Position numbers and translations under genes: made by a program. A stretch of DNA of 64,000 bases from Branchiostoma floridae (lineage: Eukaryota; Chordata; Leptocardii; Amphioxiformes; Branchiostomatidae), in assembly GCF_000003815.2 (NCBI RefSeq), contig NC_049979.1, positions 9,260,267 through 9,324,266 on the forward strand, read 5' to 3'. The notes beneath the pieces are model-generated. The model made no database searches. It was not told the DNA's origin and worked only from the letters and a program-made list of their open reading frames with translations. Below, piece by piece: positions 13,001 through 55,940 of the stretch. The stretch's first letter is position 1. Every line of letters starts with the position of its first letter.

Positions 13001-13708
13001 ATGAGTCAGTAACTGAAAAGTTACAATCACGGTATCACTAGACATCACATCATACATATCTTTATTTTGGTACATTTTGTATACATGTATTACAATAAAA
13101 CATCCATTCAAACTTGAAGCAACAAAAGTAACGATCAGAATTATTCGAAAGCTATTGGAATACATGAAATAGATCCTTCATTCCTTGTCATAATTTCTGG
13201 TGCTAAATAGATAAATCTCCACAAAATATACTCATTTATATGCTTCCCTGAGATCAATGCAAGCCTAGCAATTGGCTGCCTGCAATGATGTCATCAGGTT
13301 ACCATGGTGATGTGCTGGTGCAGCTTCCTCCTGATGGAGACTGCATCAAGCGTAAATGGTTCCATTTCATTTTGAGACCGTAGAAAGGCTATAGACAATT
13401 TGCAGTGTCTCTCTCCTTTTCCTCTCAGAAAAAGGAAACAGAAAAGTTTGACCACACACATTAAGGCCTAGGCACGGGGAGATTAACAGTTATATTGATT
13501 AGAAGACTGGTCCTGATGCTGATTCTCCATCCAATTCCTGCATCACCAGTCTCTACCCAAACCCTCAGGAGAGAACTCCCCATCAGACTGTGTCACCATG
13601 TCAAGTCTTCATCTACACAGACTGGTGATATCGAGACGTGCTATCGCATAAATGAAAGGATAATGAAAATCAATGGACCGAAAATTCGCCTCCCAGGCTC
13701 CCACCTAC

Positions 13709-14527
13709 CTTATGCATCTTGCACATCGCCCCCAGTGCCTTGACATCGTGGTTCTGGTGCTTGCCATCCTCCAGGCACTGGTAGCAGACCGGGATCTTGC
13801 ACATGATGCAAAACATGGAGATGTTTTCGTCGGTATGGCGGATGCAAGTGGACACACCCTGAGACGTCTGGTTACGGGCCTTCATGGCGGCTTTCCCCAG
13901 GGCAGGGGACACAAGGGTGTGCTTGGCCAGGGGACCCCGGAGAGGGTGACAGTTCTCTCGGCACTTGTCACAGTAGTAGACGGAGCACTGCTCACACATG
14001 ACGGTGGCATCGTTCGGGGCTTGGCCGACGCAGAGCTGGCACTTGATGACGATATTCTTGGTTTCTTCATACTTCTCGACGATCGTCTGCAGCGCTTTGT
14101 TCCGCGGGAAGCCCTGGACGCCGAGGTCGTCCAGGTAGGTGGTGCGGCGGCACTGCGGGCAGCGTATGCACGAGGTGGTGGTGGAGATGGATGAGCTGGC
14201 GCTGACTGTGGAGAAGGCGGGCGAGCTGGGACAGGTCGCCGCGTAGCCGCTCAGGCTCGCCCCGTACCCGGAATCCGCCTCACTGTACAGGCTCAGCTTG
14301 TCGAACTTGTCGAGATCGGTGTAATCGTAGGCGGACGAGTAGTCCGAGCCCGGGGAGGAGATGGTGGAGTGGCGGTAGCTTAGCGCGTCCTCCTCCGTGG
14401 GCTTGAGCCCGTAGGTCTGAGTCACCTGGCTCGCCGCGCACGACAAGCAGATGCTGTGTTGGCACGGCAGGATGATGGGGACGTTGAAGAAGCATCGACA
14501 AACAGGGCACTTCAGTTCCTCCTCCAT
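13709..14527 (-). CDS. TRIM9: TRIM9/TRIM67-like E3 ubiquitin ligase, first coding exon
   Basis: This 273-codon exon encodes the N-terminal half of a C-I subfamily TRIM protein, an E3 ligase that in vertebrates acts in neurons and in axon guidance. Start: ATG at 14527, giving MEEELKCPVC, the family N-terminus; an in-frame ATG at 14563 would add 12 residues. RING ligands are C7, C10, C22, H24, C27, C30, C123 and C126. As in TRIM9/67 the RING is split by a long Ser/Tyr-rich insert containing the conserved LSLYSEADSGYG motif (about residues 79-89). B-box1 starts with C163/C166 and B-box2 with C228/H231, ending at H257/H260. The exon ends in GALGAM-x-K-x-HK followed by GTAGGT, phase 0, as in vertebrates. 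Coiled coil, COS, FN3 and SPRY must lie beyond the left edge. I read it as the pre-duplication counterpart of both vertebrate genes. Confidence 0.93.
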
Positions 14528-14639
14528 CCCGAACGACCCCCGATCTCCCGCCACGGAAAACATGCATGCACCCTCCGAAACGCGCCCGACAGAAACCCGG
14601 CTGATCGGCCCGCACACCTCTGTGTTGTGTTGATGTATT

Positions 14640-23740: not shown

Positions 23741-25866
23741 AGTATATTTGTTTGTGCCTTTATCTAGACTCGATATTGCTCCATTCGGCCATCATGGTCG
23801 CTTTTCATAGAGGTCGAGTTAGACTCACTGAATGTACACATCATAATCACAGCTGTGAGCACTTAATCAGTCAGTGACGTGTCCTCTTCCAGGATGCCAT
23901 GCGAATTGGGACATAATTTGTATGACTTATCAGAAAATACTGTAATAGCTTTCTTTTAAAAGATAGAATTGTCATGTTTGTGACGTGTGTGATTTGGGTA
24001 GACATCATGAGATATGAATTACGCACATCAGGTTATTGACTTCATAGCAATAATGATCGTGAATCTGGCTAAAACAGTTTAAAGATGGGGTTGCGATGAT
24101 TGGTTCAGCATATGGACGGCAATTAAATACAATGGCATGTTTACAGAAACGCAACCTATTTACAACTCGGTTTATTTATAAACAGAAGGCAAAGACAGAG
24201 AGATTCTTTGTATATTTTTTTGTGTTATAGCTAGCCGGTAAGCCTAGGGCAGTACGGAATATTTAACAAAGTTATGTTCCATGGTACAAACCGACAACAC
24301 AAGTACCGACATCCAGTGCCCTGTTTTCTCTACTTTTGTCTAGATTCTTCCTCATACAGCTTGGTTCAAACACTAAAGCTTCAGTTGTCGGTTTTACTGT
24401 AACTTCGCCCTTCCTCGCAACCATGTAGTCCATTAGTTGAAAGTCTTACCCCTGAGCTTATCACCCACTGAAAAAGTTGTCGTTATCATTACACCAGGAA
24501 AAATGACAAACTCGGTTATCTGAAATGAGAAGTTTATTTTTTTGACAGCAGTGATAGCAGATATCACCAAATGGTGATGCTTTTGATACAGATAGCTATG
24601 GGTACAGTTGTGGAAACTCACCAGTATCTAATTGACAGGCAGGCGCTGCATCTCCAGAACGATTTGTATCAGCAAATAGGTTCAGTAAGATTGGAAAAAT
24701 GTTGCTTTGTCACTGGATTTTGTTACTATTCATGAGCAGCGTCAGTGAAACATGATACTGGTCTGTCTGTCATTTCCATGTGGCGATGCGGCTACAATAA
24801 TAGTTATACATTGTTGTGATAGGTACTTCACCACAAACATAAGAAAAACGATATGTAGATATTTGAATGTATGCACGATCTCTACACAAAGTAGAAGTAA
24901 CTTCTAGATATTACTGAAGACTCCATCGATATGAATGTCTAAGTATGTCTATTTTACACACACAACTGATAATGGCGTCACATATCTGGTCTAGACCGGT
25001 CTTCCTTTTATATCGCCTTATTCACACTACAGGCTCTTTCCTATCTGCAACTTCTGGAATAGTTTGTCTTTATTTGGCACGTATTTCAGACAAAACTATT
25101 GCACTCTCATCTGCTTCGTGTGCTTCTCATAGTCTGCTTGCACGGTACAGTCAGGACACACACTGTGATAGAGTCAAGGTCAACGGCAAGTCAGACAACT
25201 ATGGCGGCCTGAACATGACGGGTTCGTGTGTTCGGTACTGCCATCTTCTTCTTCAATGATTAATCTCAGTTACTTCAACTAACGTTACATCAGTACACAC
25301 CTACGTTCGTAGTCGGTACATATCGTGAAAATAATTGCTATCATCATGAAAAAATACATCATTGTCTGAATTCTCCGTCACCCCCATCAAATGCAAGGGT
25401 TTGAGGATAGTTGTTTCTTGTTTCTTATTTTTTTTACATTGACGATTTTCTTAGATTGGTTAACGTTGCTTTATTTATGTTCTTTTTGTACATGCTTAAG
25501 AAAAGGCTAGTGGTTCACACAAAGTAATTTTCCTTCTTCTACTTTGAGAAGTAACATTACAGTTCTAGACTAAAGCAACGAGGCAGCTGCGTGGACCTAG
25601 ATATCACTTATTACTGAGGCTATCATGGTCTGGAGAATGATACCCCTATCTCATTGATCGCAAGTGAAATGCTTAAGGTTTGTTTCCTTTGCAGCATTGC
25701 CTACAGCATTTCTAGTCGAAAGCTGATGAAAACCTCAAGTGCCCAACTAAAAATCCAGACCCAATGCAACAGGGTGGTGTTTGGCATAAAATATCAATTA
25801 ATCTTTGTGTATAGCATATACAAAAAGGTGGTTTCTTTAGTTAATCAAGTAAAGTGTTTATCTGTG
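23741..25866. other. Convergent intergenic spacer, APMAP to TRIM-A
   Basis: The two genes point toward each other here. I found no conserved ORF. A TTTATT at 25470-25475 could serve as the minus-strand AATAAA for TRIM-A, about 390 bp after its stop codon. Otherwise it is unremarkable AT-rich sequence. Confidence 0.5.
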
Positions 25867-26411
25867 TTAATTCAGAAGGAAGTCTGGCCATGGACATCCG
25901 GAGACCACAGTGACGACACCGTCCCACAGAGAGAATGCCGGGCAAATCGGAGACACGAAGTGTGCTTTCAGCGTGTGCAGTCTCAGTCCGATATCTGCGT
26001 TGTAGAAGGCGAGCTCGCCTCTGTTGTAGTCTAAGAGAATTCCTATCTTGTCCAGGTCGTGCTGCATGGCCAGTCGGACGGGCGAGTTGACGTCGTGCCG
26101 GAGCGTGTACTCGCGAGCGTTGCGGCGCAGCACCCAGCCGTCCTCGGTGTTGCCGATGATGCTGTCCCGCTGCGCGTCTCGGGAGCACACACCGATGCGG
26201 TAGGTGCGGCTCTCGCTCACGTCAATCTCCCAGTAATGGCGACCGGACGAGATGGCCTTGTCGCCCAGCACGGCCACGCTGTACCCGAGAAATCGCTCCA
26301 CACTATCCTCTACGTCGATGTCGTAGTCCGGGTCCCACTCCACGGTAAGGTTGCCGTTCGTCAGCTTCAGGTCTCTGTGCGCCGTTTTGGGATCCAATCG
26401 GAATAGCAAAC
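25867..26411 (-). CDS. TRIM-A terminal exon: B30.2 (PRY-SPRY) domain
   Basis: The acceptor CTGGCCAG ends at 26412, entered in phase 1. The 545-nt exon holds a full PRY-SPRY: LDPKTAH, LGYSVAVLG, HYWEIDV, a GILLDYNRGELAFY strand pair and ICPAFSLWDG. The domain normally binds the substrate or target. Confidence 0.92.
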
Positions 26412-29400
26412 CTGGCCAGGAGTTGTCAACAAAAGACCCAGTCAGTCTTATTTCTTAGACAAGAACAAATAATCCCGGAGGTGGACACTATTCCGGTAAG
26501 GTCTCTGACGGTGCGACACTCTCCAAAGCTCCGGATGAAGAAAATTCACTTCAAGCTGCTCATCATTTCGTTCAGCCTCCATCTTTTCGGTTTGCGATCT
26601 GATAAAGAACATTGGCGTTAGTGTACTTAGATCTAACACCTACGACAAGAAAGCAGACAGACAGTTATGATTAGGACCTGCATGAAGACCATCTCTTCGC
26701 TAACGCAAGCAGACGAAAGATAGAGGGTGAACAGTTAGTATGTTGTCGCCTGATATTTGTGAAGTTCAGCTCCAATCTCACGGCCTATCAAAGCTATTTA
26801 GATGAGGTTAATGATATGTCAAGGTGTCACTGTAACGTCAAATGCTCTACCTATGAAGCATCTATGAGTAACGTTAGGTCTTCTTTCTGCTCACCCACTC
26901 GGACCTGCACAGCATGGATGAGGAACTCACAATCATCAACACATTTGCTCAATGGTCGAGAAGAGCGATACAGAGGACGACGTCCTAGAAACAATTGCCG
27001 TTAGGCCAGGAAAGTGTTACAAAATCTTTAAAAAGAAAACCTCAAATTTTCTAGGACTTCCTACTTTTCCTAGGTATTGTCCTTCAAGGGAGGCCTCCGA
27101 TAGAAGTAGAAATCGTCAAGGATCAATTAATGCCAAGTGGTGATGCAATTTGCCATATGTAAAATGTCCGACTAAAATCTTCTAAATAGTGATTGTGAGT
27201 TGGCTTCTATCGTCAGAAGCCTTCCTTGATCGTGCTAGATATTTCATAAACTTGGGTAGATATCAAGATACTAGAACTGATACTAACGATCTATATAACT
27301 GAAAGTCTATGTCTACAAGTTAGTTGATGCAGTAGTATGGTTTGTATTTACTACGAACGACATGAACCTTACTGCCTGTTACAAACAAAAAATCAAGAGA
27401 GAAATGAAGATTAAGTCTGGTTGAAGAAACCTACATGTAAGTGGAAAGGAATCTAGGATACATCCAAACACACACACACAAAACAACGACATTAGTTGAG
27501 GAATGTTACGGAGAGTGAGGGAGTGGAACACGTTGCAACCGCATACCTCGCTTTTCACTAGTACTGGATGGGACGTCACTTGGGGGGACAACTGCTGGAG
27601 TATCTGAAGTGGTCACGGGTCCTTCTGGGGCTTCTGGGGCTGTAACCGAACGTGTTATCAGAACATGGAAGGATACGGACGTGATCGGGGATTGGGAATG
27701 TCTAAGGATATGTGAGCGTGTAGACGGCGTATACTGGTATGGAGCGAAAACTAAATAAAATGTAATTTTGCCTTCTAACGTTGACCTACTGCCTGCAGCG
27801 CTAAAGATCTACGTAGACTTCTCTGCCCTCAGCAAAAGCTCCTTCTGAAGATTCTAACGCGTTCTAAAAGGAGAGAAAAGTGGTACTGTCAGCCTAAAAG
27901 CACTATTGGATAAGACGTCATACAGAAAGTTTTCAAAAATCCCTACCTGATCCTCCAGCTGCAGATCTGCTGCTTGCTTCGGACGATGTTGCCTCGGCGT
28001 CTGCTGTTTCCGATGAAGACTGTCGCGCCATTGCCGACCTCCTCAGCGCCGCACTCCGGCTCAACAGCGACATGGCAGACGTGTCGATATCGTCATGTCT
28101 AGAAGAAGTTGACAAGCTCTCATTTCTGTCTCTGTCTCTGTCTCTATCTCTTTCTGTTCCAAGAATGGCGGAGGCTCTCTCCGTTCTCTCGGCCCTTCTT
28201 CCCTCCAGTAGCGCCGACGTCCTTTCCAGGGCGGAAGAACCCCTTTCCAGTGCAGAGTTGGCTCTGTCCAGGGCTGAGGTTGTTCTGTACGAGCTCGGGC
28301 TTCGGTAGTCTGAAGCATCATCAAGCAATGCCGCAGTCGTTCTCTCGATTCTCTCTAACGCAGAGGCTGCGGCCGTTCGGCGCGCCCTGAGGGCGCTCCC
28401 AAAGTCGTCATCTGCCGGGGAGGAGGTCGTTGCTCTGTCGGCTCTATCTAGGGCCGACGAGCCTCGGTCCCTCAGAGAACTCCTGAAGTCGGAAGAATCG
28501 TCACGGTCAGCCTCACGTGCACGATCACGATCTAACGAATTCCTAATGTCACCGATAAGTCCTCTTACACTACTTCTATAATCTGAAAGATCTGCTGACG
28601 ATGTGTCTAAGGATGTGTGCGATCTTGTGTAGCGGCGGAGCTGCCTGCGAGCGGGGCGGGGAGACATGGACAGGTCGTCCGCAGCCGTGGTCCGGGTGGA
28701 CGACCGAGACAGGATAGAATTGTAGTCTCGAGAGGACGACCACCGAGACGAGGAGGACGTGGACAGGGAGTCAAGGAAAGAGCGACGGGCAGTGCGAGGG
28801 GTAGAGGAGTCATAGGAGAAGGTGGGAGAACGAGAGCGGGAATCATAGCGGGAAAGATAAGAGGAAGACGACAGAGAAGAATAATCAGAATCACGATCAG
28901 CAGACCGATAATCCCGTCTCCTCGGGGTGTCCAGCAGGGAAGACCGCCCGTCAGACGAGGACGACGATGTGGACGGAGACGGGGAGGCGTCGTCCTCTCG
29001 GTTGCCGGCGCAGCAGGCGTCGTCCTCGGTGTCGTTCGTCAGTGGAGTTTTGACGTACTTCGCCACCAAGTCTTGGAAAGGGACTTCCTCACCTACGGTG
29101 TACAAAAAGTGTCTTCGTTAGAGTTTCATTTCTTTCGAACGATCGTAATTTTTAAAACTGAATGATCAACATATTAATCATTAAAGGGGTCGTCCAGATA
29201 CGTAAGTGCATAGAACGTTGGCGTGATTCATTTTTTTGCTGAATTCAGCTTTGAAGGGTTTCAAGGGTATGTAGTTTGGTGGCTGGTTTTGGTTCGTTCC
29301 CATCTAGGACTGCGACTAATAATCTGTTTCACAATGTCTAGACCCTGCTCACTGTTAAACAGGCTGAGACCAGCCAGTCTGTATCCCCAACAGGACAATG

Positions 29401-32400
29401 ATGACAAGTGTTTTCCACACCATCTAGGTAAGCTATCCAGAATGGGCAGCACGCCAGGGTGTCAGTAATGAGGGGGATGTTTCTGTAAGCACCGCACCTT
29501 GGCAGAAGTCCATCTTGCCGATCAGCTCCCTCTCTGCTGAGAAGTTAACATCCCAGCGGATGATGGCTTCGGCTTCCTCCGACCTGGGCTCCACCTCCTG
29601 TGCGATCTCTTTACTTATTCTGCAACGCGTAGACATCATAGGTTAGCTTTGATCTACATTGTGGCCCATTTTATGAAAGACAAACAGTTCATGCAATTAA
29701 AGTTGTTGGTGGGACCCCGATAGTTGTACTTCTCGCATGTGTCATCATTTATCTTATCTTATTTTTCATTTTCAGTTGGATACATGATGTTGGTTTTCAT
29801 CAGTACGAAATGTATGGTCCCTGTGACATCGGAAAGTCAAACAACAGTATAAAGGAAAGGGGAAACAATGAAAGAGAAAGAAAGAGACCGGTGGACCACG
29901 AGAAGCCGGTCTTTCCGATGTCAAAGAAACCATTTACAATTTTCAATCTCAGCTAGTGGTCGAAAATATATTTTAACGACCATCAACCACTTTGGGCTAT
30001 TAGCATATTTATGCAGAGGAAGCAGAGGAACGAGAAGGGCATGTTATACACCCACACACCATCCCCCAAAGACGCACCCGTACACAGCATGGCTTACATC
30101 ACATCATTACAGATCATACCAGACAGGGCTAGAATCTTTAATGTCCAAGCAGAGGTAGGGCCCGGCTCAGTATTTCATGTGTTTTTTGAGGGCATTTCCC
30201 ATTCCCCTATGCAAACACAGGGACCACTAGAAAGAAGAATAAAAAGCAACGCCTGGATACTGAGACAGACCTTACTTCTGCTTCACGATGACAAATTTGC
30301 TTGTTCGCCGTTTGATCTCAATGACAAACTTGGTAATTGTCATACTAATGAACAGTGAATACCCTTTGACGCAAACTATGTGTGCTGTGAAATCATATGA
30401 ACAGCCTATTGTGAATTACGGACGGTTTCGAGCCCTGTGTGTATAATGAACCTATTTTCTAGTGTAAAGTAAGAAGCATGTTATCCATCTACTACGACAG
30501 CTTGGTGCCTCTCCAGCGGAAAATATTCCGGACTGGGGAGAAGGTCACCCATGCAGTAACTTAAGGCGCACAAGGTCACGCCATGCAGCTTTCAAACACA
30601 CTCTGTAACACAAATAAAGGACATGTGTGAGTAAAAAACACAAGACTAAATCTATCAATTTGTGCTAGGTCTAGGAAAAACTCCATGTTTAGCTACCGGG
30701 GCTGGGTTGGGACACGTCCAACCGCACATTCCAGGTTGTTATAGACGGTGGTTCATGCCGCAACAATGTCAACTACCACGTCATAGACTAAAACAACGTC
30801 ATAGCATAACACAGATAGATCACAGGTGGCTGACTTAAGGACAGCGTCAGAACTGAAGAAGAATCTTAAAAGGTCGTTTATCTCCCAGTGAGGAGAAAGT
30901 GAGAACGCCAGCTGTAATGTGTTGATGTCACTGTCACTCTATGATAGACTAGCTCAACCTTGTTTTTCAGCTGAGGGATGGGAGAGCTACATAGCGCCGC
31001 ATTCACCGAGCATCGTTTGCGCATGCTTGACAGTTGGAGGCTACGAGACAGCTACCGTCATGTGTATGGAATGTTGACGATGCGATAGACCTGACAAAAT
31101 TCATGACCTACACATACGTCAAATATGACAACAGTGGCGATGTTCCCTTTTCCATGACGCTTGTCTTGTTTGTTAAACGTCAATAGTTAAAATTTGTCAT
31201 GGCCACCAAGGTTAAAGGTTAAAGAGTCACTACACTCATCAACCAACGCACTTACTTCTCTTCAAGTTCTGGTACATTCTGCTCGGGTCAGGAACGATGT
31301 GAAAAGAGATAAGAACATTTAACATTATCATACAGAATTGTAACATAAGACTACCACCAGAAACACAATGTGTGTCATCATCAATATGTGTAGCAACGTT
31401 TGTACCAATATCTTATCTTCGAATGTTGTTGTTTTGAACTCTTGACATACTTTCGACTGTACCACCCCCTTGTCTGTGTCACATATTGATTCCACATGAT
31501 ATCGTACTGAGCATTTTCTCCGATATCAAGTGGTCTTGTCAACAATTCTTGTGCCAAGATGACACTGGGATTAAAAAAGAAATGCATCTATTATTGAAAC
31601 CTTGATTTGCGGTGAACAGATGTACTAATAGTCTCAACCGTCAGAAATTTCAGAAATATCGGGTTCGACCAAGAAATCCGTTTTAGAATCTGACTCTCAA
31701 TCAGTATCATTTCTGTGAAACATTGGCGTCATGTTCATGTGGACATTGCAGGCACATGTCTTATGTTTCGTTATTCACTGTGACTATTTCAAAACATAGA
31801 ACAGCGTCAACAAGCAAATATGGTCCTTTTGGAAAGGACTGAAAAGTACACAACTGTCTTTATTTTGTAAGTCGCCTCAGGTATGCCGTAATCCTATATG
31901 GAAGACATGGTCGGAACACAAACGACCAGTGTCTCGTCAGCCCCTCTCTCCACGCTACAGTGGGAGATTACTGCAGGGTGAGCGAGGCAGAAACACTCCA
32001 GGCGCAAAACAAGGCCATCCACGCCTTGCCCCCATTAGCAGCTACATGGACTACATTGCCGGACTACTTTTGGGAGGGGGTTAGTGTCCCACGACATGCA
32101 TGGTCGAGGTTCTCCATATAGCTTTGCCAAAATACGTTTTCAAGGTGGTAGTCAGTGTGGGTTACTGAGTTCTAGCATCCAGGACACATGCCTTAAATTT
32201 CCATCGCTTGGACGTTGAGGTGTTTGCTTATTTCGTGGTAGATGTTTAAAGTAAGTATATAGAGCGGAACCTGAGAGCCCGAACTCAATGATCACAGATT
32301 CACAGGTATCAACATTGTATCACTTTCTTTGAAGTTGTCATTTATGTGCCATATTGGATTGCAAGGTCCAAATGGGTCGACACTTCCGTTATCTCTGATC

Positions 32401-35400
32401 ATTTCTACCAGGTAGCATTGTACAACTCATGATCGAGAGCCAAACCACGACAACCAAACATTGTGATGTGCAAACAAGAAATCAACAACGTTTCATTCAC
32501 TATACTCATATATCAACATATATGATATTGCTTGCGAAATCGACTAATCCACATGGTAAGGTCTCTTTACTTTCACGTTTTTAACATGGTTTTGGTTGTC
32601 AAAAAGTCGAAATGTATGCATCATAAAATAACACGTTGCCTAATGATCCGTTACGCCATTTTATCTGTCATTCTCTGGCTCTAAAACATTCTGAAAATGG
32701 CAATCGATCCAAAATCTGATTTTCCAACCCACAGACTGAGTGGAACATCCCGCCAGCCTGTTATCCCGGACATGACGGCGGTGTTAGGGCTGAGACGCGA
32801 CCCTAGATACCAGACAGCCTTCACAGACACATTCCGACCTATCTTTCCTTAGACTGGGAATGTCTGCTCGGTTTTACATAGGGAAGAATTTTGCACAGTC
32901 TAACTTCTAAAACTCTGTTTAAACCACAGAGGAATCTAAATGATATGAGGGGTTTACTCATTGGACGAGCCTCTCCAATGTGGCAGATTTGACATCACAG
33001 AAGGATCACTGGGGTTTAACCCCCTCTCCCAAACGTATAGTACCAATGACAGTGGGTCTATGCAAAATAACCTGGGGAAAACATTTTACTGATCAGTCCC
33101 ACAGATCTGTCTGAGACCTGCCCTAAATCTCAGTATTCTAACTGGGATGCGTACTTTATTGGAGAATAAAATACAAGTACGCACCTGTATAAACTGCGCG
33201 ACGTCCTTTTTGCCCAGCATGTCCTCGACCCAGGCGGCCGTCTTCTTGGACTTGTCGAGCCGGGTCTGTCTGGAGGCTATCTGCTCCCTGAGCGTCCGGC
33301 TACTCTCGCGTTGTTCCTTCTCCAGCTTCTCCACCAGCGCGTCCTTCCGCTCGTTTATCAACGTGATCAGCGACTCGCACTCCGATAGCAACTTTGCCTT
33401 CGTGTCTTTACATTTACTCTGTGAGTAGCAAGGAGCAGAGGTTAGAATAATGGATGAAATGTATGACTCCTCATTACTACGTGTTCGCATCCACGACCTG
33501 ATGATCAATCTAGCTGAAAGAAAAGGATGTGTCATTCATCGGCTTCTGGGTCTGAAAAATAAGCAACTAAACAAATAGATACACAAATTGTAAACAGGAC
33601 CGATATTTTGAGTCTTCATTATATGTACTTATGTAATACAATTAGAGTTTCAACATTTAAGCCTGCAATATGAACAACTCTTCCCTGATTTTTTAATTAA
33701 ATATATCTATAATACAGCGGACAACAATTAAGACAAGTCAATATCAAATGAATACCTACATTTGTACATTTTACTACTTCATGAACGTCTTCAACAATAA
33801 AAGTCATAACATGTACACCTGAGGGGAAGAGGACCGATTTTGGAAATAAGGAAAATGTATTCGGTTTCCGAGGTCATGTTTGTTTGTTTGTCTGTTTGTC
33901 TATTACGACTCTGTGTACCTTGGATACATGTAGCTCGCCGCTACTTACTTCAACGTCTGCCCCGTCGTGCAGTCCGTAAATGGATCTGAATTTCCTTCGC
34001 GAGCCGGGATCACCCTTGAACGAGAGCAGTGGTGTCGCGGGGTGAGGGGGTGTCAGGGGATTCCCCACACCACGCGACGGCGGGTCTGCGGCACTACGTC
34101 TACATCTACGCCTCTACGCCTACCCCTCACTTGTCTAAATACTACGACATAACCATGCTTGCAAAAATCAGCCAAATATCTATAAGTGGTCCGTGCTGAA
34201 TGAGGCATTCAATGTATCTTTGATGACGATGTATATGGCGAACAGAAATTTCGCTATATGGGTAATTCATTGGAACTGAAAAAAAAGGAAAATGGTTGAG
34301 GCGTGATTTAATGTTGAGAAAGGCAGGAGCCGTTAATGACATGTGAGTGCGAAGTCGAAGCTGGAGGATCATCGCTGTTAGTCACAGTTCTGTAAGGAAA
34401 TGGAGGAGACGATGGCGTCATGGGTTGCTAGGATACCGAACGTTGGCATGTGTGACAGTAAGATATTACTGAAAGATAAAGATGCAAGTTTAGCAATGGA
34501 TATCCGATTGGACTTCTGGACAACATGGAGTGTGTTACAAAGTCAGATCATTCCTTCATATTTTGCGTTGATGTGACAGAGTACTGAGTAAACTTACCTC
34601 TATTATCCTTAAAGTTGCCTGTATGTCTGACATCTCCTTGGACATATCACTGTTCTTCTGTTGAAGTCTGTTCATTTCCGTTTCTATCTTTTCCTGTGAA
34701 AGTACAGAGTAAGCAAGACTTGAGAACTAAGACACTACCGTATACCGAACACTCATGAACGAAAGCACCAACATGATATGTGGTATGATATAATATGGAT
34801 TATCATATTAAACGATACAAAGTTAAGCCATGCCAGGTAACTATGCAAGATTAAGACTTACAGGAAACCTTTTAAAATTGATCATTACGACCACAGAGGT
34901 ATATTTCAAAGACTAGTGCTGTAAATTGTATCAGTTTACTTCCTTCGCCTGTATTATCGCGTCAACAGCGTTAGGTGGTAACAGCAGTATCAACATTGCC
35001 GTGTTGTACACATTTCTGCACTACAAGTCGGAGCATGGGCAGCATCAATCAACAGTTACAATAGATATGACGTCGCATTTCACATGTAAGTATCCAGTGC
35101 CTTTTCTACAGCTTGGGGATTGTGTGAGGATTTATTGGGCTATGTTTAGAGATAGGCCGTTTTCAGGAATTCAGCTGACCTTCTTTTCCTTGAAGATCGT
35201 CTGCAGCTCGATGATGTTGTGCTGGTTGTGTTGTCCGATGACACACAGCCCACATATCGGCCTCTCGTCCGTCACGCAGTACAGGTTCACCCTCTCGTCC
35301 TTGTGGTCCCTGCAGTACGCCCCGCCGCCGGGAGGGGCCGTCTTGATGCCCGCCGACTGCGCCACTCGGTAGCTTTCAATGATCGTCTCCACGAGAATGT

Positions 35401-35689
35401 TCCGTTTGAGACCGTCTAGTCCCTGGCGACCCAGGGTGATTTGATCCCGGCACGTCGGGCACTTGAAGGAGCCGCCGTAGCGCGCCCAGCCGCCCATGTT
35501 GGTGAGGATGTCCTCGGCGCAGTGTCGGCACAGGTTGTGCTGACAGGGTAGCAGCAGCACCGGCTTGTTGAACATCTCCAGGCACACGGGGCACGACAAG
35601 TCCCGCTCGAGGCTCTCCATGACGAGACCCAAGTCCGGCGCGCGAATCTCTCCCGACGAGTGACCGAAACTACTTCCGAGAGACGTCAT
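25867..35689 (-). CDS. TRIM-A: RING/B-box2/coiled-coil/COS-like/disordered/SPRY TRIM protein, complete
   Basis: Predicted RING E3 ubiquitin ligase. Coding exons in transcript order: 35689-35180, 34693-34598, 33418-33185, 31278-31256, 29619-29498, 29092-27947, 27639-27547, 26411-25867. All junctions are GT/AG and in phase, giving 2769 nt and 922 aa. RING: C33, C36, C49, H51, C54, C57, C77, C80. B-box2: C126, H129, C138, D141, C146, C149, H154, H157. Both resemble the MuRF group (TRIM54/55/63). Coiled coil spans about 171-288, a COS-like segment ending GKMDFCQ about 289-328, a Ser/Arg/Asp-rich disordered tract 329-710, a Pro/Thr linker 711-741, and SPRY with LDPKTAH and HYWEIDV 742-922. MuRFs themselves lack SPRY, so the combination is unusual. 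The ATG at 35689 follows an acceptor ending at 35700, implying an upstream noncoding exon. Confidence 0.88.
27947..29092 (-). CDS. TRIM-A exon 6: 382-residue low-complexity Ser/Arg/Asp exon
   Basis: A single 1146-nt exon, phase 1 at both ends. Composition is dominated by S, R, D, A and T, with patches such as SRYDSRSRSP, degenerate SAL-x-R motifs (SALDRANSALERGSSALERTSAL) and an acidic/basic run RDRDRDRDR coded by a TCTCTG-type hexanucleotide on the plus strand (about 28126-28160). No domain is recognised and it is predicted intrinsically disordered. Phase symmetry means that skipping it would keep the frame. Confidence 0.85.
29620..35179 (-). other. TRIM-A introns 1-4
   Basis: Introns are 34694-35179, 33419-34597, 31279-33184 and 29620-31255. 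Apart from coding exons 2-4, I see no conserved ORF, RNA gene or clear repeat, except a short GTTT-type run near 33878-33900. Confidence 0.6.
31256..31278 (-). CDS. TRIM-A 23-nt microexon
   Basis: CAG acceptor, 23 nt encoding NVPELEE plus two bases, then GTAAGT. It is required: the preceding exon ends in phase 0 (AQFIQ), and the next exon is open only if entered with two bases carried over. Joining them gives NVPELEEK-ISKEIAQ. A 23-nt exon at this point is a known hallmark of many vertebrate TRIM genes. Confidence 0.85.
35180..35689 (-). CDS. TRIM-A exon 1: RING and B-box2
   Basis: One 510-nt exon carries both zinc modules. In TRIM-B the same region is spread over three exons. An in-frame ATG at 35620 (MESLERDL) is an alternative start that matches the MuRF N-terminus more closely. 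The donor is AAGAAG then GTCAGC, phase 0. Confidence 0.9.
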
Positions 35690-41166: not shown

Positions 41167-41653
41167 TTACTGGTATCCAACCATCCTCCCCATCAGGTTG
41201 ATGAAGTTGTAGATCACCTTCCCGGAGTGGTCAGACGAACTGTGGAACTCTGGCGCTGTCCTGCCCGTGTAAAGGACCAGGTGGCCCTCTCCGACTGAGA
41301 AAGCCGGGCAGATAGGGTCCTCTCCCTTTACGTCGAAAAATCTGTGCAGTACCACATAGTCTCGCATGGTGTCGAAGAACGTCAGAGTCCCATGCTCGCA
41401 GTCCAACAATACGCCGATCATCCTTGGGTACTCCTGAACAGACAACATGTATATCTGCACGTCGTGATGGGCGAAATAGTCTCCGCCTTCCCGGCTGATG
41501 CACCAGGCGTCGGCGGTGCACCCGAGCGACTTGTCCCGAGCAACCCGGCTGGATGCGACGCCCAGTCGGTAGGTGGTTGCTGCAGACACGTCCACTTCCC
41601 AGTAGTGTGTCCCGGTGCTGAGGAACACGCCGCCCAGCACACTATAGGAAAAT
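41167..41653 (-). CDS. TRIM-B terminal exon: SPRY core
   Basis: The acceptor TTTCATAG ends at 41654. The 487-nt exon, entered in phase 2, carries YSVLGGVFLSTGTHYWEVDV and the rest of SPRY. The PRY part (TRFTLDPQTAHREL) is in the preceding 169-nt exon together with a Cys/Ser-rich linker. TRIM-A has both parts in one exon. Confidence 0.9.
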
Positions 41654-44600
41654 CTATGAAAGAAGAACAAGAGGTTAGTGAATGTAAGTTGTTTCAACGT
41701 AAGAGTTACACTTGAACTACTGACGCCAAGTGTACGGCATTTAAAATATTACTGTCACACATTGCAGCTCTATTTTCTGTTCAGCAAGAAGACGACTTTC
41801 TCTTGTCCGTAGGACTAGTCTGACTGTGTGAGAAGAGCAAAGGAAATATCGACTTCCGACAACATTTTACCAATTGCTGACGTCACACTCGAAGAAAAGC
41901 ACAGACAGAAGGAAGCGTTCAGACAGATGAAGAAGAAGAGTGAGACCATTTTTTCTAGTTGGTTGGAGAACAGCTTAACTTTTCTGTTAAGTATCTCAAT
42001 TATGAGTATCTCGAGAACAATGAAGAGGTAACCTGGTAAAGCGTTCCGAGTTTTCACAGCTGTCGGCGCTGTTGGAACAAGACGAGTCGAGTGAAGCATG
42101 GCGGCAGGTTCTTCTCTCGGCGTCCATAGCGACCACTGTGTTGCCATGGCGCAGCACCAGCTCTCTGTGCGCCGTCTGCGGGTCCAGGGTGAACCGGGTA
42201 CCTGCTCACACGTAAGGACATCAGACATCTCAAAGATTGTTTCTTTACAGTATATGCTGGTGCGATTAGTATATAGCTCTAGTAACAATGTCTTGGGTTT
42301 AAAAGCGCAGCCAGGTATATACAACTGAGCCGTATCGGGCATCACAACTGATAAAATCCGGACGATTGCTGTTAAGCACCATACGCTAATATTGAAATAA
42401 ATGTTTACTATCGAAGGACACATAAATCTAAAAGCGTGGAACTTAAGGGGTGGATGTGTAACTAGCAAAGTTGAGTACGGATTAGAGCAAATAGAAAGAC
42501 TATATAGACTATAGTCATAAGAAATTACCTTCGTCCTGACTCAGCCTGATGACCATCTCCTTCTCCCTGTGTAAGTCTATCCCTGCGTGCAGGAAGTGGG
42601 AGTCGGCGGCAGGGAGACGCGCCATGCCTCTCACCACAGACACCGCCTGGTCTATCCTGGAGGCAAGATTTAAAAAAAAAATGAAATGACGAAAGGAATC
42701 ACTGAAAAGTCTTTAAATACTTTGAAACATGGCTGTGCGGCCACAAATATCCACAAACTCATAGCCATTAAAAACGTCAGCGAACGTTCAAAAGCGCTCA
42801 CAAGCATTCTCAAGCGTTCACAATCGTTCGCGGGCGTTTCCAAGCGTTCACAAGCGTTCAAAAACGTTCGGAGACGTCCGAGAACGTCCTTAAACGAACT
42901 TTTTAAAAACCATTCAAAAGTCTACCGGTATACCGTTGTTTTGTCTCTCCTGCAAGCACCACGAAAGCCCCCGGGTCGGTTTCCTCCAGCGCCAGCCGCG
43001 CCTGACCGCTGACCACCCGGCTGTTCACCAGCACGTCCCGGCACGTGTCGGCCTGCTCACCGAGCTCCTGCAGCTTCCCGCCGGCCTCCTCCTCCACCCG
43101 CGCCACCAGGCCCAGCTTCCGCTCCTCCAGCAGGGAGATCAGCTCGTCGTACGCGCTCGTCACCTTGATCTTTTCTTCCTCAGCTTTGTCCTGATAGGGG
43201 AAGGGAGAGGGTCTTTTGGTAATTTCATCACGAAAGCTGATGTTATTTTTGGGTGGTGAGATGGTCCGGTGTTTAGTTTCAAATATTCAATGAAACAACC
43301 ATTATACGAACAACTTGCTTTGTCTTTGTCAGCAGGGCTAGCTCTTTGTACAGGCTAGTTTGGTAGCCCTGTCAGTGTGTGCTGAACAGCCAAACCAATA
43401 AATAGATATATTAGCAACCATTATACTAGATATGTTAGATACTACCATAATCCCCGTTGTTAAAAACAAATCTGGTAATATTTCTAGTAGTGACAACTAT
43501 AGACCAATTGCCCTGGCATCAGCTTTATCCAAAGTCTTGGAGGCTGTTTTATTGAACAGGCTAGAGCCATATCTTCAAACCACTGCTCATCAATTTGGTT
43601 TTAAACGTGGACATGGACTCGACATGTGTGTATTTACTCTAAAACAGAGTACTACCGGGGTCTCGGCTCGCCAGTTTTTGCCTGTTTCTTAGACGCCTCA
43701 AAGGCTTTCGACAGGGTAAACCATTGGACTCTATTTAAAAAACTCCTTGACAGAAAGGTCCCGGTGTACTTGGTGAGGTTTCTGGTTTATTGGTACCATA
43801 ACCAAACAATGTGTATTAGATGGAACAATGTTTTGTCACCCTGCTTTTATGTATCAAATGGTGTAAGGCAAGGGAGTCTGCTATCCTCACTATTATTCAA
43901 TGTGTACATTGATGATTTAAGTTCGAGACTCAGTAGTACGAAAGTAGGCTGCTATATAGGAGGCTTTCTTGTGAATCATCTTTTTTACGCTGATGACATG
44001 TGTTTATTATGTCCCAGCCTCAAGGCTCTGCAAAAACTTGTAAGTACGTGTGAGGACTTTGGTTTTGAAAATGATTTGTTATTCAATGTAAACAAGACAT
44101 GCTGCATGTACTTTCCGAGTGCTAATCTGCCACTTCTACATCCGCTCCCGTCGATCAAACTGTATGGAGAGTGTTTGAGATTTGTGACTTCATTTGTATA
44201 TCTTGGGATTGCTATTAATGACAGACTGAGTGATGACGATTGTATACTCGCCCAGCTAAGGGGTCTCTATTGTCGCGCAAATACTATAAGGCGAAAATTT
44301 TGTATATGTTCTCCTTCTATTAAGAAAACGCTGTTTACAGCTCACTGCGCCCAACTTTTTGGTGCGCAGTTATGGAATTCTTTTAGTTCGAGTGTTCTGT
44401 CGAAATGTCGCATTGCTTACAACAATTGTTTCCGCATAATAATGAACTTGCCTAGATCTTGTAGTGCAAGTGATATGTTTGTGTGTAACTATACGGACAC
44501 CTTCGACGCCAGATGGCGTAAACAGTGCCATTCATTTGTAAATAGGCTTTCCAACTCAACAAATACCATTATACAGTCTGTGCTCAGGTCCGACTCTTTT

Positions 44601-47600
44601 TACCACAATTCTTTCTTCCCCAAGCTCTGGCGTCGCCTCTATACTTAGAATATTTTTTTATGATGGTCTAACATGGTGTACATATTTCATGTCTTTCATG
44701 TTTGTCCCTTAGTCTTATGGGCCAGTTAGAGCCTGAAATAAAGAATAAAGATTATACAACACCGGTGTATCAATAGATCCCTAATCCAGATTTCTTATCG
44801 ACTCTCTTCTACCATGTATGGACTGATTATATAAGTCGTGTACAATCAAGAAATACAAAACTTGTACTAACGGCGAATTCTTAAAAAATCTTAAAAGACC
44901 AAACATCTGTGTTAGCGATAAGTGTTGGCCTACCACAAATGCCACAGTAGCAGGTCCTACCTTGACCTCCATGATGACGGAGTTCAGCAGCTCTATGAAA
45001 CTCTCCAGTTCACCGTTCGTCTGGTCCAGCCGCTCCAAACTTGCCTCAAGGCGCGCCTGAAAAGTTAAAGCGATCAATCTCTGGCTGAGACGAAGCGTGG
45101 CGTTCTTTCTAGATAGCATACAGTGCTCGCATTTAAATTTGAGTCAATGACGTCGACACCTAGGCCTCGCCTGGCCACAGACTGCAAGATGCATAAGAGT
45201 CTGGAGTAGTTCAAGGGAGGGTTCCTCAGAGAGAGTCACAATGCCCTGGGGGCCATGAGAGACACAGGGTAACCCCTACTCTTGTCGAAAATTGAGTTGA
45301 AGTTCTGATTTTATGGCGTTTACGCCTGAAAGTTCCCCATACATGAAGCGCTGGCTTTACGTAGACACCCGAAAGGTTCAATACGCAACCAGGTTCCTGT
45401 CCATGATGCTACTTCTCCTTCACACGTCCCATACCTGTCTATGGTGCTGATCTATTGTATCCCATAGACTAGTGCTCCTTTACTCTCCGCTCTGAATCTA
45501 GTGAGGGCAACTGCCAAGGTGTCAATCATGATTTAGCTTGTGGCGTCACTGTCTCTTCTTGTCAGATGCAGGACGGATGCCTATTCTGACCACTATACAG
45601 CTTTTGCGTTGAAAAAGATAGAGTTCGATTTGATCCACCAATTTCACTCGGGCACAATTAACGAGTACTCTTTCTCGCCATCTTCACTCTGTGTTAAAAG
45701 GAAGCTGTACTCGAAGTTACTGTCTGTACCTTCTTCCATTGGAACACGCGGCCCAGTTCCGTGACGTCGTGGTGGCGATGTTGGGTGATGACGCACCGAG
45801 CACAGATGGTCCTGTCGTCTGTCTGACAGAACAGGTTCACTCTCTCGTCAGGATGGTCCGCACACATGGTGGTCTGGACGACAAAATGAGAACATTTGAC
45901 CGTGGAATTGACGTTTCGGGGTTTGAGAAATGTTTTTGTGTGTTAGTCCGTGGTAGCCTGGGTACCATCCTCCACTAGCTTGTTCTCCCCTTATGCAAGT
46001 TAGCTTACCACGGAGTAAAAAGGGAGAGTTATTGGAGATTACGTAAGATGGCACCCATTGGCCGTTAAAGACAGAGACCTCTTTCTGTTTGTTATGCTTT
46101 TTTCACGTAGCTAGACGTGTGTATTTCGTAGATTTTGTGTACTCGTGATACAGCATCAATGCATTGCTTCTTTGTCACATCCTGTGAAAGTATGATCAGC
46201 GCATGATGACAAGGCTAAACACCGAAGGCAAGAACCCGGATATCTGTAGGATGCCCCTGTCACACAGTTGGCTATCTTCAGCCGTATTTGTGGATAGCCA
46301 GAAAGTCCCCCTACTTAAAAATCGAGGATTCCGCGTTTCCTTCGCCTGAAATCTTCTCTGTCATATCTATCGGGGCTTGGTGACCTGCGAACATCGGCCG
46401 ACCCCTAAAGATTCAGGGAAATAGTACTGCCAAAAATGTCATTAGAGATCACAGTCTCGTCGACCTATCGATTTTCCTTTTTTTCCCCTCATAGTTCTAA
46501 CCAAAATGACGTGTATTTGTGATACCTTCGGCTTGGGTTTGGCCTGTTCCTCCTGCCATGTCTGCAGGACCTTCTCAGCCAGGCGGTTTCGCGCCACCCC
46601 GTCCACGCCGCGGGACAGCCAGAACTCCTCTCGGCACACGGGGCAGCGGATCCGCCGGGACCTGGCAGGGACCACAATCAATAGAGAGACAGGTTTATTC
46701 ATTCATCAATATGGTATGTAGTCTTTGTACAGTTTTCATGGATTTGTTAAAATTCGTATCGATCTTTTATCTACAAAATATGTACACTGATGGCAAGATC
46801 AGGATTTTACCCCCAAACTAGTACTTGGGTTGCAAGGGTTGCATTTCCAAACCGGGCCCCAGGCAGTCGGGCTGTTTGCAAGAACGAAAAATAAAGTGAA
46901 CATCAAGAAATAAACAAAAATTATGCTCATGACTATTTCTATAACGTTTCTTTTTACGTCTTATTTTGTCTTTTTAAAGATAATTTTCGTTCCTGCAAAC
47001 TACAAGGAGCTGGTGTGGAAATGAGACCCCAATAATAGCGGGATTGCTATGGACTGCATCACGGCATGCTATAAGGGTATTTTCAGTCATCTTGATCTGT
47101 CTATTAGCTCTTCAGAGCGACACGAAAGGCAAGAAAACAGACTAAAATATTTCACTCTACTTTTACTGACACAGACAAGTAGATGGATGTGCGGGAACGT
47201 GTCGAGCAAGCTAATAAAATTCTAAATTGTATGTAATTACGCCACCAAATTACTAATAACTAACTAGAACACTTGTTTATGGACTCTAGTCATGCTAATC
47301 TCAAAGACAGCGGAGGGAATTGCGATATCAAAACACGATGCATTATCTCCATAATAAAAGCTGACCGAGTTGTTACGTCTTCTTCCATTACAAGCACTAC
47401 CGTCCAAATCTTCATTTCAAGCGTTTGAAGTATTTTGCTGCAAGACTAGAGTGTAGTTGTAGCGGTCTATTCAAAACAATAAGGCATGTTTCCTGCCCTG
47501 GCAGACATTTGGAGGGCTGTCTTGCGAGACTGTTTAAAAGTCGGTAAAACTTTTACAAATTGCTATCGTTGCAGGCGACATATTAAGACATCGACATCGA

Positions 47601-47972
47601 TTCAATGATAAAATCTTACTTTTTTTGTAACATATATTTCCAAGACATGGTGGCAACCCACTCAAGTCGTAACTTATATCAATGCTTTCTGATTGAATAA
47701 GATATTTAAGAGTGGGTTTTAAATTCTTGACATGCATCTGTGTCTCACCTGTAGGGTCCCTGGAACATGTCCTGGAGGCACGCCTGGCAGAAGTTGTGTT
47801 GGCACGGCAGCATGAGCACGGGAACGGTCAGCAGGTCCAGGCAGATCGGACACTTCAGGTCGGACAGAACCGTCTCCATGACTGCCAGCGGGGTGGTGTC
47901 CACACAGGCTACAGGCAGGGAGCTCGGGGGAGGGGGGTCATCCAAGCAGTCTTTCCATGGGGCAGCCGCCAT
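41167..47972 (-). CDS. TRIM-B: RING/B-box2/coiled-coil/COS-like/SPRY TRIM protein, complete
   Basis: Predicted RING E3 ubiquitin ligase, tandem relative of TRIM-A. Coding exons in transcript order: 47972-47749, 46661-46526, 45873-45730, 45056-44961, 43190-42934, 42656-42529, 42201-42033, 41653-41167. All junctions are GT/AG and in phase, giving 1641 nt and 546 aa. RING: C41, C44, C57, H59, C62, C65, C81, C84. B-box2: C124, H127, C136, D139, C144, C147, H152, H155. Coiled coil spans about 169-286, a COS-like segment 287-328, and SPRY 329-546 with LDPQTAH, HYWEVDV, GVLLDCEHGTLTFF and ICPAFSVGEG. The ATG at 47972 lies in a GTTATG context shortly after an acceptor at 47986, so an upstream noncoding exon is likely. 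An in-frame ATG at codon 32 is an alternative. No B-box1 and no FN3 are seen. Confidence 0.88.
42657..42933 (-). other. TRIM-B intron 5
   Basis: A 277-bp intron, nearly half of which is the decamer repeat listed separately. Splice sites are GTATAC after exon 5 and TTGCCTCCAG before exon 6. Confidence 0.75.
42771..42890. repeat. 10-bp tandem repeat (12 degenerate copies) in a TRIM-B intron
   Basis: Consensus CAAGCGTTCA with exact 10-bp spacing for 120 bp. Copies diverge (for example CGAACGTTCA, CAAGCATTCT, GAGACGTCCG), but the AnCGTTC core stays in register. Confidence 0.85.
43335..43412 (+). mobile_element. LINE-like 3' tail fragment
   Basis: GGGCTAG and TAGCCC bracket a short hairpin, followed by AACCAATAAATA. 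The layout resembles the 3' end of a non-LTR retrotransposon. It abuts the reverse-transcriptase fragment on its right. Confidence 0.35.
43413..44757 (+). mobile_element. 5'-truncated, frameshifted CR1/L2-like non-LTR retrotransposon
   Basis: Reverse-transcriptase coding similarity runs from about 43432 to 44648 on the plus strand, antisense to the host gene TRIM-B and inside its intron 4. Visible RT hallmarks are NYRPIAL, LDASKAFDRV, the NGVRQGS-x-LSSLLFNVYIDDL block and the catalytic YADD at 43986-43997, followed by a CR1/L2-type thumb and C-terminal region. One frameshift near 43640-43665 breaks the ORF, and the 5' half (endonuclease) is missing, so the copy is dead. The 3' end is a short tail with AATAAAGAATAAAG near 44736-44751. 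Confidence 0.85.
43626..44648 (+). pseudogene. Reverse transcriptase remnant (main open segment)
   Basis: Open for 340 codons but without a genuine N-terminus. It holds the fingers-palm motifs and YADD of a LINE RT. The upstream part of the domain (43432 to about 43650) continues in another frame, so this is the larger half of a broken ORF. Confidence 0.85.
46662..47748 (-). other. TRIM-B intron 1
   Basis: A 1.09-kb intron interrupting the RING coding region. It contains the small foldback at 46874-47000. Nothing else recognisable. Confidence 0.7.
46874..47000. repeat. Small foldback (17-bp inverted ends)
   Basis: GTTTGCAAGAACGAAAA at 46874-46890 and its inverted copy at 46984-47000, one mismatch. 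The centre is AT-rich. MITE-like, inside TRIM-B intron 1. Confidence 0.55.
47749..47972 (-). CDS. TRIM-B exon 1: N-terminal half of the RING
   Basis: Encodes an Ala/Pro-rich leader and CPICLDLL-x-PVLMLPCQHNFCQAC, the first six zinc ligands. The donor TACAG then GTGAGA splits an Arg codon (phase 2). The rest of the RING (RCPVCREEF) is in exon 2, so an intron interrupts the zinc finger. Confidence 0.9.
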
Positions 47973-55375: not shown

Positions 55376-55940
55376 GGCGGCTGTTTCGACAAAATAATTC
55401 GGAACAATGTTATCATGGCTGTAGACACAATGTCCAAAGTACGCGAGCAAAGTACAACTGTTACATATACAATACCAAAGTTACCACCACTGATCACATG
55501 GCTTATGAAACTAGTCTACCAACCTGCAAGTGATTCCAATATTCAGTCCTAATTTCCACAGAGAACAGCAGTGTAATGTTTTCAACTGCTCGCGGACGTC
55601 CCAGTGTATAGAATGTTGTCAAAATACTCCGGACAAGAAGCCCCAACGGACACTTACGTTAACGTTACTTCGTGACGTTACTTCTAACGTTACAACTTTC
55701 GGTGCCAGTTTCGGTGCGCCAAGATTTATGGGTACATTTTTAATGGCAAATTAAAACATGGAGGAGCAGGTGTGCCGTTTTTCGTTTAGCACTTTTCAGT
55801 TCATTTGTCCTCCCGATGGAAAACTGATAATTTTGAAAAAAAAATACTTGGTGTTGCAGGAAATTTATTCTTTGTAATTCAGGCTAATTTCGGCAAACGG
55901 CGCTGTTTCACAGCTCCCACAATCCGTAAACTAACGTTCC
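55376..55940 (-). promoter_or_regulatory. Conserved upstream flank of KLHL copy 1
   Basis: This segment is shared with the region upstream of copy 2 (59414-60020), with blocks such as GCGGAACAATGTTATC, AAAGTACGC, TTTCGGTGCGC and CGGCAAACGGCGCTG. Conservation suggests that the promoter was duplicated with the gene. No TATA box is obvious. Confidence 0.4.

Follow-up and report, generated by a model that had tools for sequence, protein, structure and literature searches.

Can a TRIM gene join a RING, B-box2 and COS box of the kind found in MuRF proteins to a SPRY domain, and what then fills the place between COS and SPRY that FN3 takes in related genes? The question is raised by TRIM-A, a predicted gene on the minus strand (35689-25867) of a 64,000-nucleotide stretch of the amphioxus Branchiostoma floridae genome (C1:9260267-9324266), referred to below as the window. 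TRIM-A was compared with a second gene of the window (TRIM-B) and, from the whole genome (513,431,437 bases in 431 contigs), with TRIM-C, TRIM-D and the amphioxus MuRF, MID and TRIM9 genes. With a probability of about 0.62, we read TRIM-A as a protein-coding gene for a RING-type E3 ligase of the Subfamily B lineage (MID, TRIM9, TRIM36/46 and MuRF), which would combine COS with a MID-type SPRY, lack B-box1 and FN3, and carry a genome-unique Ser/Arg/Asp (S/R/D) exon, probably together with a short exon, in the FN3 slot. The domains, the exon phases, the exon ledger common to the sister genes and the differing contents of the slot are all apparent in the DNA itself.

Gene model of TRIM-A

The model consists of eight predicted exons that encode 922 amino acids (aa) and a stop in a single open frame. 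AG precedes exons 2-8, GT follows exons 1-7, and the phases match throughout. The exon lengths are 510, 96, 234, 23, 122, 1146, 93 and 545 nucleotides (nt), with incoming phases of 0, 0, 0, 0, 2, 1, 1 and 1. The features and the evidence for them are as follows.

35180..35689, minus strand: exon 1, start codon, RING (aa 33-80) and B-box2 (aa 126-157); gene model, Pfam and zinc-ligand pattern
34598..34693, minus strand: exon 2, 96 nt, coiled coil; gene model, with the same 96-nt exon in sister genes
33185..33418, minus strand: exon 3, 234 nt, coiled coil; gene model and Pfam TRIM_CC
31256..31278, minus strand: exon 4, 23 nt, start of the COS region; gene model, with a 23-nt exon in the TRIM-C, TRIM-D and MuRF models
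29498..29619, minus strand: exon 5, 122 nt, COS box (...DVNFSAERELIGKMDF) ending in phase 1; gene model, alignment and shuffle tests, with exons of equal length in TRIM-D and MuRF
27947..29092, minus strand: exon 6, 1146 nt, 382 aa, rich in S/R/D/A, phase 1 to 1; gene model, composition and frame statistics
27547..27639, minus strand: exon 7, 93 nt, 31 aa, rich in P/S/T, phase 1 to 1, the weakest exon; gene model
25867..26411, minus strand: exon 8, 545 nt, MID-type PRY-SPRY and stop; gene model, Pfam and solved-structure matches
25470..25475, minus strand: AATAAA, 392 nt beyond the TRIM-A stop; motif scan

The order of RING, B-box2, coiled coil, COS, 382-residue exon and PRY-SPRY over eight phased exons, as proposed in the first-pass annotation, was thus confirmed by the predicted gene model together with Pfam and shuffle tests. 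Since exons 6 and 7 are both symmetric (phase 1 to 1), either or both could be skipped without a frameshift, so that a short TRIM-B-like isoform is possible. TRIM-A may well be annotated already in the gene databases of the species.

RING, B-box and SPRY domains

Pfam detected the RING, the B-box (1.3e-10) and the SPRY domain (6.7e-14) in TRIM-A. The TRIM_CC model was matched at 30.0 bits, exactly at its cut-off, and PRY at 19.6 bits, under its cut-off of 27.5. The order of RING, B-box and coiled coil (RBCC) that defines the TRIM family is present according to Pfam and the zinc ligand patterns. There is a single B-box stretch by Pfam and no B-box1 in the alignment. As had been expected for the region between COS and SPRY, no FN3 was detected by hidden Markov model (HMM) search of the conceptual protein with Pfam, nor in 10 open reading frames (ORFs) taken from the TRIM-A and TRIM-B slot regions, where a half-domain exon could escape.

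The human references were eight proteins, of which MID1 and parts of MuRF1 were compared with solved chains. Over the RING and B-box2, TRIM-A matches human TRIM63 as one contiguous piece (145 bits), and this bears out the suggestion that this part is MuRF-like. Against MID1, the match breaks into pieces of 94 and 50 bits, since B-box1 of MID1 lies between its RING and B-box2. The best solved-structure matches of the SPRY domain are MID1 (2.4e-37) and MID2 (2.1e-33), followed by TRIM14 (2.3e-22), and it scores 137 bits against MID1 versus 63 against TRIM21. The call of a MID-type SPRY is based on the solved structures and on the TRIM9, TRIM21 and TRIM36 reference sequences. The earlier description of a MuRF-like protein with an added SPRY therefore stands for the RING and B-box2 part; the SPRY itself is MID-like, and the trees favour neither MuRF nor MID.

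COS box

The Pfam COS model PF18568 has no match in TRIM-A. In a control with the reference sequences, this model detected the COS box of MID1 (8.5e-33) and missed that of human MuRF1, and the miss on TRIM-A is thus uninformative. The region was compared by local alignment with seven human COS references and 1000 shuffles, the equivalent region of TRIM21 serving as the class IV comparison. No shuffle reached the score of TRIM-A against MID1, MID2, TRIM55 or TRIM36, and 8 of the 1000 did so against TRIM54. The corresponding counts are 0/1000 for amphioxus MuRF, 4/1000 for amphioxus MID and 413/1000 for TRIM21. In the alignment of TRIM-A with MID, MuRF and TRIM36, the coiled coil is almost gapless and COS contains one short gap. 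Homology of the TRIM-A region to the MID and MuRF COS boxes is supported by these comparisons. The COS-like box of the first-pass annotation can therefore be retained as a homologue despite the negative HMM, and not as a specifically MuRF-like one, since it is equally close to MID.

Among the sister genes, TRIM-C gave 0/1000 against eight of ten references (TRIM-A, MuRF, MID, MID1, MID2, TRIM54, TRIM36 and TRIM9), with 4 for TRIM55 and 71 for TRIM63. TRIM-D gave 0 to 4/1000 against six of ten (TRIM-A, MuRF, MID, MID1, MID2 and TRIM54) and 22 to 63 against the other four. Neither region matched TRIM21 (467/1000 for TRIM-C and 910/1000 for TRIM-D).

The slot between COS and SPRY

The exon ledger before the slot is common to TRIM-A, TRIM-B, TRIM-C, TRIM-D and MuRF, at 96, 234, 23 and 119-128 nt. 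The 234-nt unit is whole in TRIM-A and TRIM-D, divided into 138 + 96 in TRIM-C and 132 + 102 in MuRF, and fused with the 23-nt unit in TRIM-B; in amphioxus MID, the COS exon of 157 nt seems to contain the 23-nt unit as well. A phase-1 end of the COS exon is common to TRIM-A, TRIM-B, TRIM-C, TRIM-D, MuRF and MID. A phase-1 start is found for the SPRY exon of TRIM-A, TRIM-C, TRIM-D, MID and TRIM9 and for the PRY exon of TRIM-B. Between these boundaries, the contents differ:

TRIM9: two FN3 exons, 140 + 139 nt, phase 1-0-1
MID: FN3, of which the second exon has 196 nt, phase 0-1 (first exon not found)
TRIM-A: 1146 + 93 nt, phase 1-1-1
TRIM-C: 170 + 193 nt, phase 1-0-1
TRIM-D: 93 nt, phase 1-1
TRIM-B: none, COS joined straight to PRY-SPRY

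The intron phases (1 to 1, as in amphioxus TRIM9 and MID) agree with the earlier proposal that the low-complexity exon occupies the FN3 position. The low-complexity terminal exon of amphioxus MuRF follows the same phase-1 COS boundary and is a second counterpart of TRIM-A exon 6. An undescribed TRIM class had also been proposed. Its layout of COS and SPRY without detected FN3 holds, and its status as a lone class does not, since TRIM-B, TRIM-C and TRIM-D share the layout.

The different contents at one spot in sister genes suggest an exchange slot for new TRIM proteins. In a wider and tentative form, to which we give somewhat less than even odds, chordate Subfamily B TRIMs would have a phase-1-bounded exon-exchange slot between COS and SPRY. 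In amphioxus the slot would be either empty or occupied by FN3, the S/R/D exon, an A20 finger or a short exon, and in MuRF by a low-complexity terminal exon with no SPRY. On this view, TRIM-A would be closely related to MuRF but with a SPRY. Such a slot would provide a concrete, testable phase-1-to-phase-1 rule for the origin of new TRIM architectures.

Exons 6 and 7

Exon 6 is very probably coding. Its frame runs through 382 codons without a stop, whereas the five alternative frames have between 8 and 24 stops, and the longest frame among 300 Markov-1 resamplings spans 329 codons, short of the observed 394. Exon 7 is likely, if weakly so, to be part of TRIM-A; the frame is also intact without it, exon 6 running in frame into exon 8. 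Exon 6 has no match to Pfam families. A search of the genome (513 Mb) gave no second copy, with the self-match alone at E 0.01 or better and 12 of 12 candidates scored, and the idea that exon 6 is repetitive or derives from a mobile element was rejected on this result among the best candidates scored genome-wide. Sequence homology of exon 7 to the 93-nt slot exon of TRIM-D was likewise rejected (987 of 2000 shuffles score as high); length and phase alone agree. Exons 6-7 contain neither an S-x-I-P microtubule end-binding motif nor the pattern K[KR].[KR].

AlphaFold2 was run without alignment. Residues 27-164 of exon 6 had a predicted local distance difference test (pLDDT) score below 50, and a helix was predicted over much of residues 168-374, with 10-residue means of 78-91 in 171-190 and 271-320. 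SAL[DE]R repeats in steps of about seven residues (TRIM-A aa 601-621) overlap the predicted helix. A low pLDDT says little in this mode, because the SPRY exon, a real one, scores just 33. The disorder originally proposed thus fits the first half of exon 6 better than the second, much of which is predicted helix in these alignment-free models.

Relationship to known TRIM classes

The best matches of TRIM-A over RBCC-COS and SPRY among the eight human references are MID and MuRF, not TRIM21. The four MuRFs in the alignment and TRIM-A, TRIM-B and TRIM-C carry a one-residue RING insertion (PVxxLPC) that MID, TRIM36, TRIM9, TRIM21 and TRIM-D lack. Trees were built from 10 rows, 8 rows (SPRY) and 14 rows. 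When TRIM-A was held with MuRF, the approximately unbiased (AU) test gave p = 0.176 with 10 rows; with 14 rows, the values are 0.29 for TRIM-A, B, C, D and MuRF together and 0.18 for TRIM-A, TRIM-C and MuRF. Held with MID, TRIM-A gave 0.334 (10 rows), 0.081 (14 rows) and 0.452 (SPRY tree), and a clade of TRIM-A to TRIM-D gave 0.153 (14 rows). None of these groupings was rejected, and none was demonstrated. As judged by sequence kinship and the exon ledger common with amphioxus MuRF, TRIM-A belongs to Marin's Subfamily B (class I + II), and the predicted protein is a new architectural variant of these TRIMs.

Like the class C-I proteins (MID1/TRIM18, MID2/TRIM1, TRIM9, TRIM36, TRIM46 and TRIM67), TRIM-A has a RING, B-box2, coiled coil, COS and MID-type SPRY, and the phase-1 COS end and SPRY start recur in amphioxus MID, the latter also in amphioxus TRIM9. 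Unlike them, it has no detected B-box1 or FN3 and carries the 382-aa S/R/D exon in the FN3 slot. With class C-II (MuRF1/2/3 = TRIM63/55/54) it shares the PVxxLPC RING, the single B-box2, COS and the ledger of 96, 234, 23 and 122 nt; both have a low-complexity exon behind the phase-1 COS boundary, whereas only TRIM-A adds an intact in-frame SPRY exon. Class C-IV (RING-B2-CC-SPRY, CC denoting coiled coil, e.g. TRIM21) is alike in the RING, single B-box2, coiled coil and SPRY; it differs in that TRIM21 has no COS match to TRIM-A and a more distant SPRY.

MID, linked to Opitz syndrome, and MuRF, linked to muscle wasting, represent medically relevant human TRIM classes, and the two are thought to be related via domain loss. 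If the wider slot reading holds, TRIM-A would show that B-box1 and FN3 can be missing with SPRY retained, which would outline a possible origin of class II from class I. The occurrence of a COS-SPRY TRIM without FN3 and B-box1 beside MuRF in amphioxus would indicate intermediate combinations predating the vertebrate duplications. Marin (2012, PMC3503706) merges class I and II TRIMs as Subfamily B and takes class II to be vertebrate-only genes derived by truncation from class I; the presence of amphioxus MuRF contradicts this vertebrate-only statement. COS-SPRY without FN3 is absent among the human architectures in the part of the PMC2533329 table that was examined. The combination seen in TRIM-A was not found among the listed titles and abstract starts of the open-licence literature on amphioxus TRIMs or on COS, MuRF and SPRY.

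Proposed function and alternative readings

By analogy with these families, the RING of TRIM-A would ubiquitinate, its coiled coil would dimerise the protein, the COS region would place the dimer on microtubules, and the MID-type SPRY would select the substrate. Exon 6, long and net-neutral, would act as a spacer to extend the ligase's reach and may self-associate.

Several observations weigh against the reading of TRIM-A as a COS-SPRY ligase of Subfamily B. The COS region is not significant against human TRIM63 (961/1000) and TRIM9 (83/1000), and that of TRIM-B is weak (TRIM36, 1/1000; MID2, 24; TRIM55, 51; MID1, 60; remaining references, at least 400). The FN3 scans are less than fully sensitive, because the TRIM9 FN3 is split over two exons and the first MID FN3 exon was not found. 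None of the trees places TRIM-A or unites TRIM-A to TRIM-D. Codon usage, scored after training on 2425 codons from other genes of the window, gives no proof of exon 6 or exon 7: the score of the predicted exon 6 frame (0.086 per codon) does not stand out from two others (0.080 and 0.115), and exon 7 is atypical (-0.184, under background). Microtubule binding is described for TRIM69, in which no COS is detectable (PMC11359181), so that COS is not the sole route to microtubules. The zebrafish TRIM gene ftr06 (PMC3137616) cuts both ways. A chromodomain exon inserted between its exons 5 and 6 is a printed precedent for such an insertion, and, as in TRIM-A, the new exon directly precedes the one for SPRY. 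Unlike TRIM-A, it is a fintrim gene, the inserted exon encodes a folded domain, and the SPRY exon behind it is left out of the transcript; the SPRY of TRIM-A might likewise be skipped.

This precedent favours the alternative that TRIM-A is mainly a MuRF-like protein, RING-B2-CC-COS with an S/R/D tail, whose SPRY exon is skipped or confined to a minor isoform. Amphioxus MuRF has just this layout, a phase-1 COS end followed by a low-complexity terminal exon with a stop, and read-through at the exon 6 donor of TRIM-A would meet a stop within a few codons (ORF end GRDF). However, a GT donor in the correct phase follows exon 6, A[AT]TAAA is missing from introns 6 and 7, the AATAAA is found 392 nt beyond the stop of the SPRY exon, and this exon is itself intact and MID-like. 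We consider this alternative unlikely.

It is also improbable that exon 6 acts as a mixed-charge domain through which the ligase is targeted to condensates such as nuclear speckles, with COS no longer used for microtubules. Mixed-charge domains rich in R and D localise to nuclear speckles, as stated in PMC9324279. The composition of exon 6 (S 87, R 60, D 46, A 44, E 17 and K 2) is rich in arginine, its 62 positive and 63 negative charges give a net charge of -0.003 per residue, and RD+DR pairs are mildly enriched (22 versus a shuffle mean of 14.5, reached by 35 of 2000 shuffles). However, the charged fraction is merely 0.33, RS+SR pairs are unenriched (the observed 22 is reached by 1797 of 2000 shuffles), and the charge patterning is at shuffle level (227/500). 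MuRFs are sarcomere and cytoskeleton proteins, a further point against a role in condensates. MID proteins bind microtubules, according to PMC11359181.

That exon 6, or exons 6 and 7, lies outside the gene and TRIM-A joins COS directly to SPRY like TRIM-B is very unlikely: exon 5 does run in frame into exon 8, codon usage is unsupportive and the TRIM-B slot is empty, but the 382 stop-free codons with fitting splice sites and phases stand against the 8 to 24 stops of the other frames and the 0/300 resamplings, and sister genes carry exons in the slot.

Sister TRIM genes in the amphioxus genome

A search of the genome with TRIM-A exon 1 gave at least 151 matches, a lower bound with 150 of 479 candidates scored, and many lie inside open frames of at least 600 codons. 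Detailed reading covered the three best matches after TRIM-A and part of the C10 match; the C9 cluster was compared by tblastn alone. The exons of TRIM-C, TRIM-D and MuRF were picked manually on the basis of open frames and splice sites.

41167..47972 of the window, minus strand: TRIM-B, 8 exons, RING-B2-CC-COS-PRY-SPRY, empty slot, phase-1 COS-PRY intron; gene model
C1:7,225,648-7,236,689 (loci L034 and L035): TRIM-C, RING-B2-CC-COS, A20 zinc finger exon, low-complexity exon, SPRY; model
C11, about 20.453-20.459 Mb: TRIM-D, RING-B2-CC-COS, 93-nt exon, SPRY over several exons; partial model, with the exon 1 ends and later SPRY exons outside it
C17, about 7.209-7.22 Mb (loci L036 and L037): amphioxus MuRF, RING-B2-CC-COS, then low-complexity terminal exon
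C10: MID orthologue with B-box1 and FN3; partial model
13670..14638 of the window, minus strand: first-exon ORF of the TRIM9 orthologue, RING, B-box1 and B-box2; domain search

The A20 zinc finger between COS and SPRY in TRIM-C scores 26.4 bits against a Pfam cut-off of 21.6. A20 fingers of other proteins bind ubiquitin. The combination was not found in the open-licence literature looked through by title and abstract start. No FN3 was matched by Pfam in 13 ORFs of the TRIM-C slot region or in 6 ORFs of that of TRIM-D, where again a half-domain exon could escape. Part of the first SPRY exon of TRIM-D occurs three times in one open frame, with TG-rich simple repeats between the copies (C11, about 20.4547-20.4553 Mb, locus L046).

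Amphioxus MuRF is 65-70% identical to human TRIM54/55/63 across RING-B2 and groups with the three vertebrate MuRFs at 100/99 in the 14-row tree, TRIM-A lying outside that group. Its tail exon is rich in serine and acidic residues and has its own stop, and no SPRY occurs in the stretch read. The fourth exon is present in two tandem versions (59% and 50% to TRIM55), which are possibly mutually exclusive.

In amphioxus MID, the first ~45 bases of the COS exon occur twice, 155 bases apart (10979 and 11134 in the joined loci L040+L041), and the second copy alone is open through to the donor. The later TRIM9 exons, including FN3 and SPRY, are also on the minus strand, below the window, and presumably join the first exon. 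A tandem cluster of four MID-like RING-B1-B2 genes is located at C9:13,640,000-13,679,999 (loci L042-L045), with two SPRY matches in the 40 kb; the B-box2, coiled coil and COS of these genes (and FN3 in three) fall within one large tblastn match.

Other features in the window

A 347-codon ORF on the plus strand (43605-44648), within a TRIM-B intron, reads by eye like a reverse transcriptase of the long interspersed nuclear element (LINE) type. Three similar long ORFs on the minus strand, also judged by eye, read like BTB-Kelch (KLHL) proteins and are probably tandem copies; two of the three start with a D/Y/G-rich stretch.

53333-55480, minus strand: KLHL-like ORF
57455-59425, minus strand: KLHL-like ORF
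62336-63865, minus strand: KLHL-like ORF

The region 60522-61165 is repetitive, with three plus-strand frames open, and the 2-kb bin 60001-62000 has a strong guanine-cytosine (GC) skew of -0.215.

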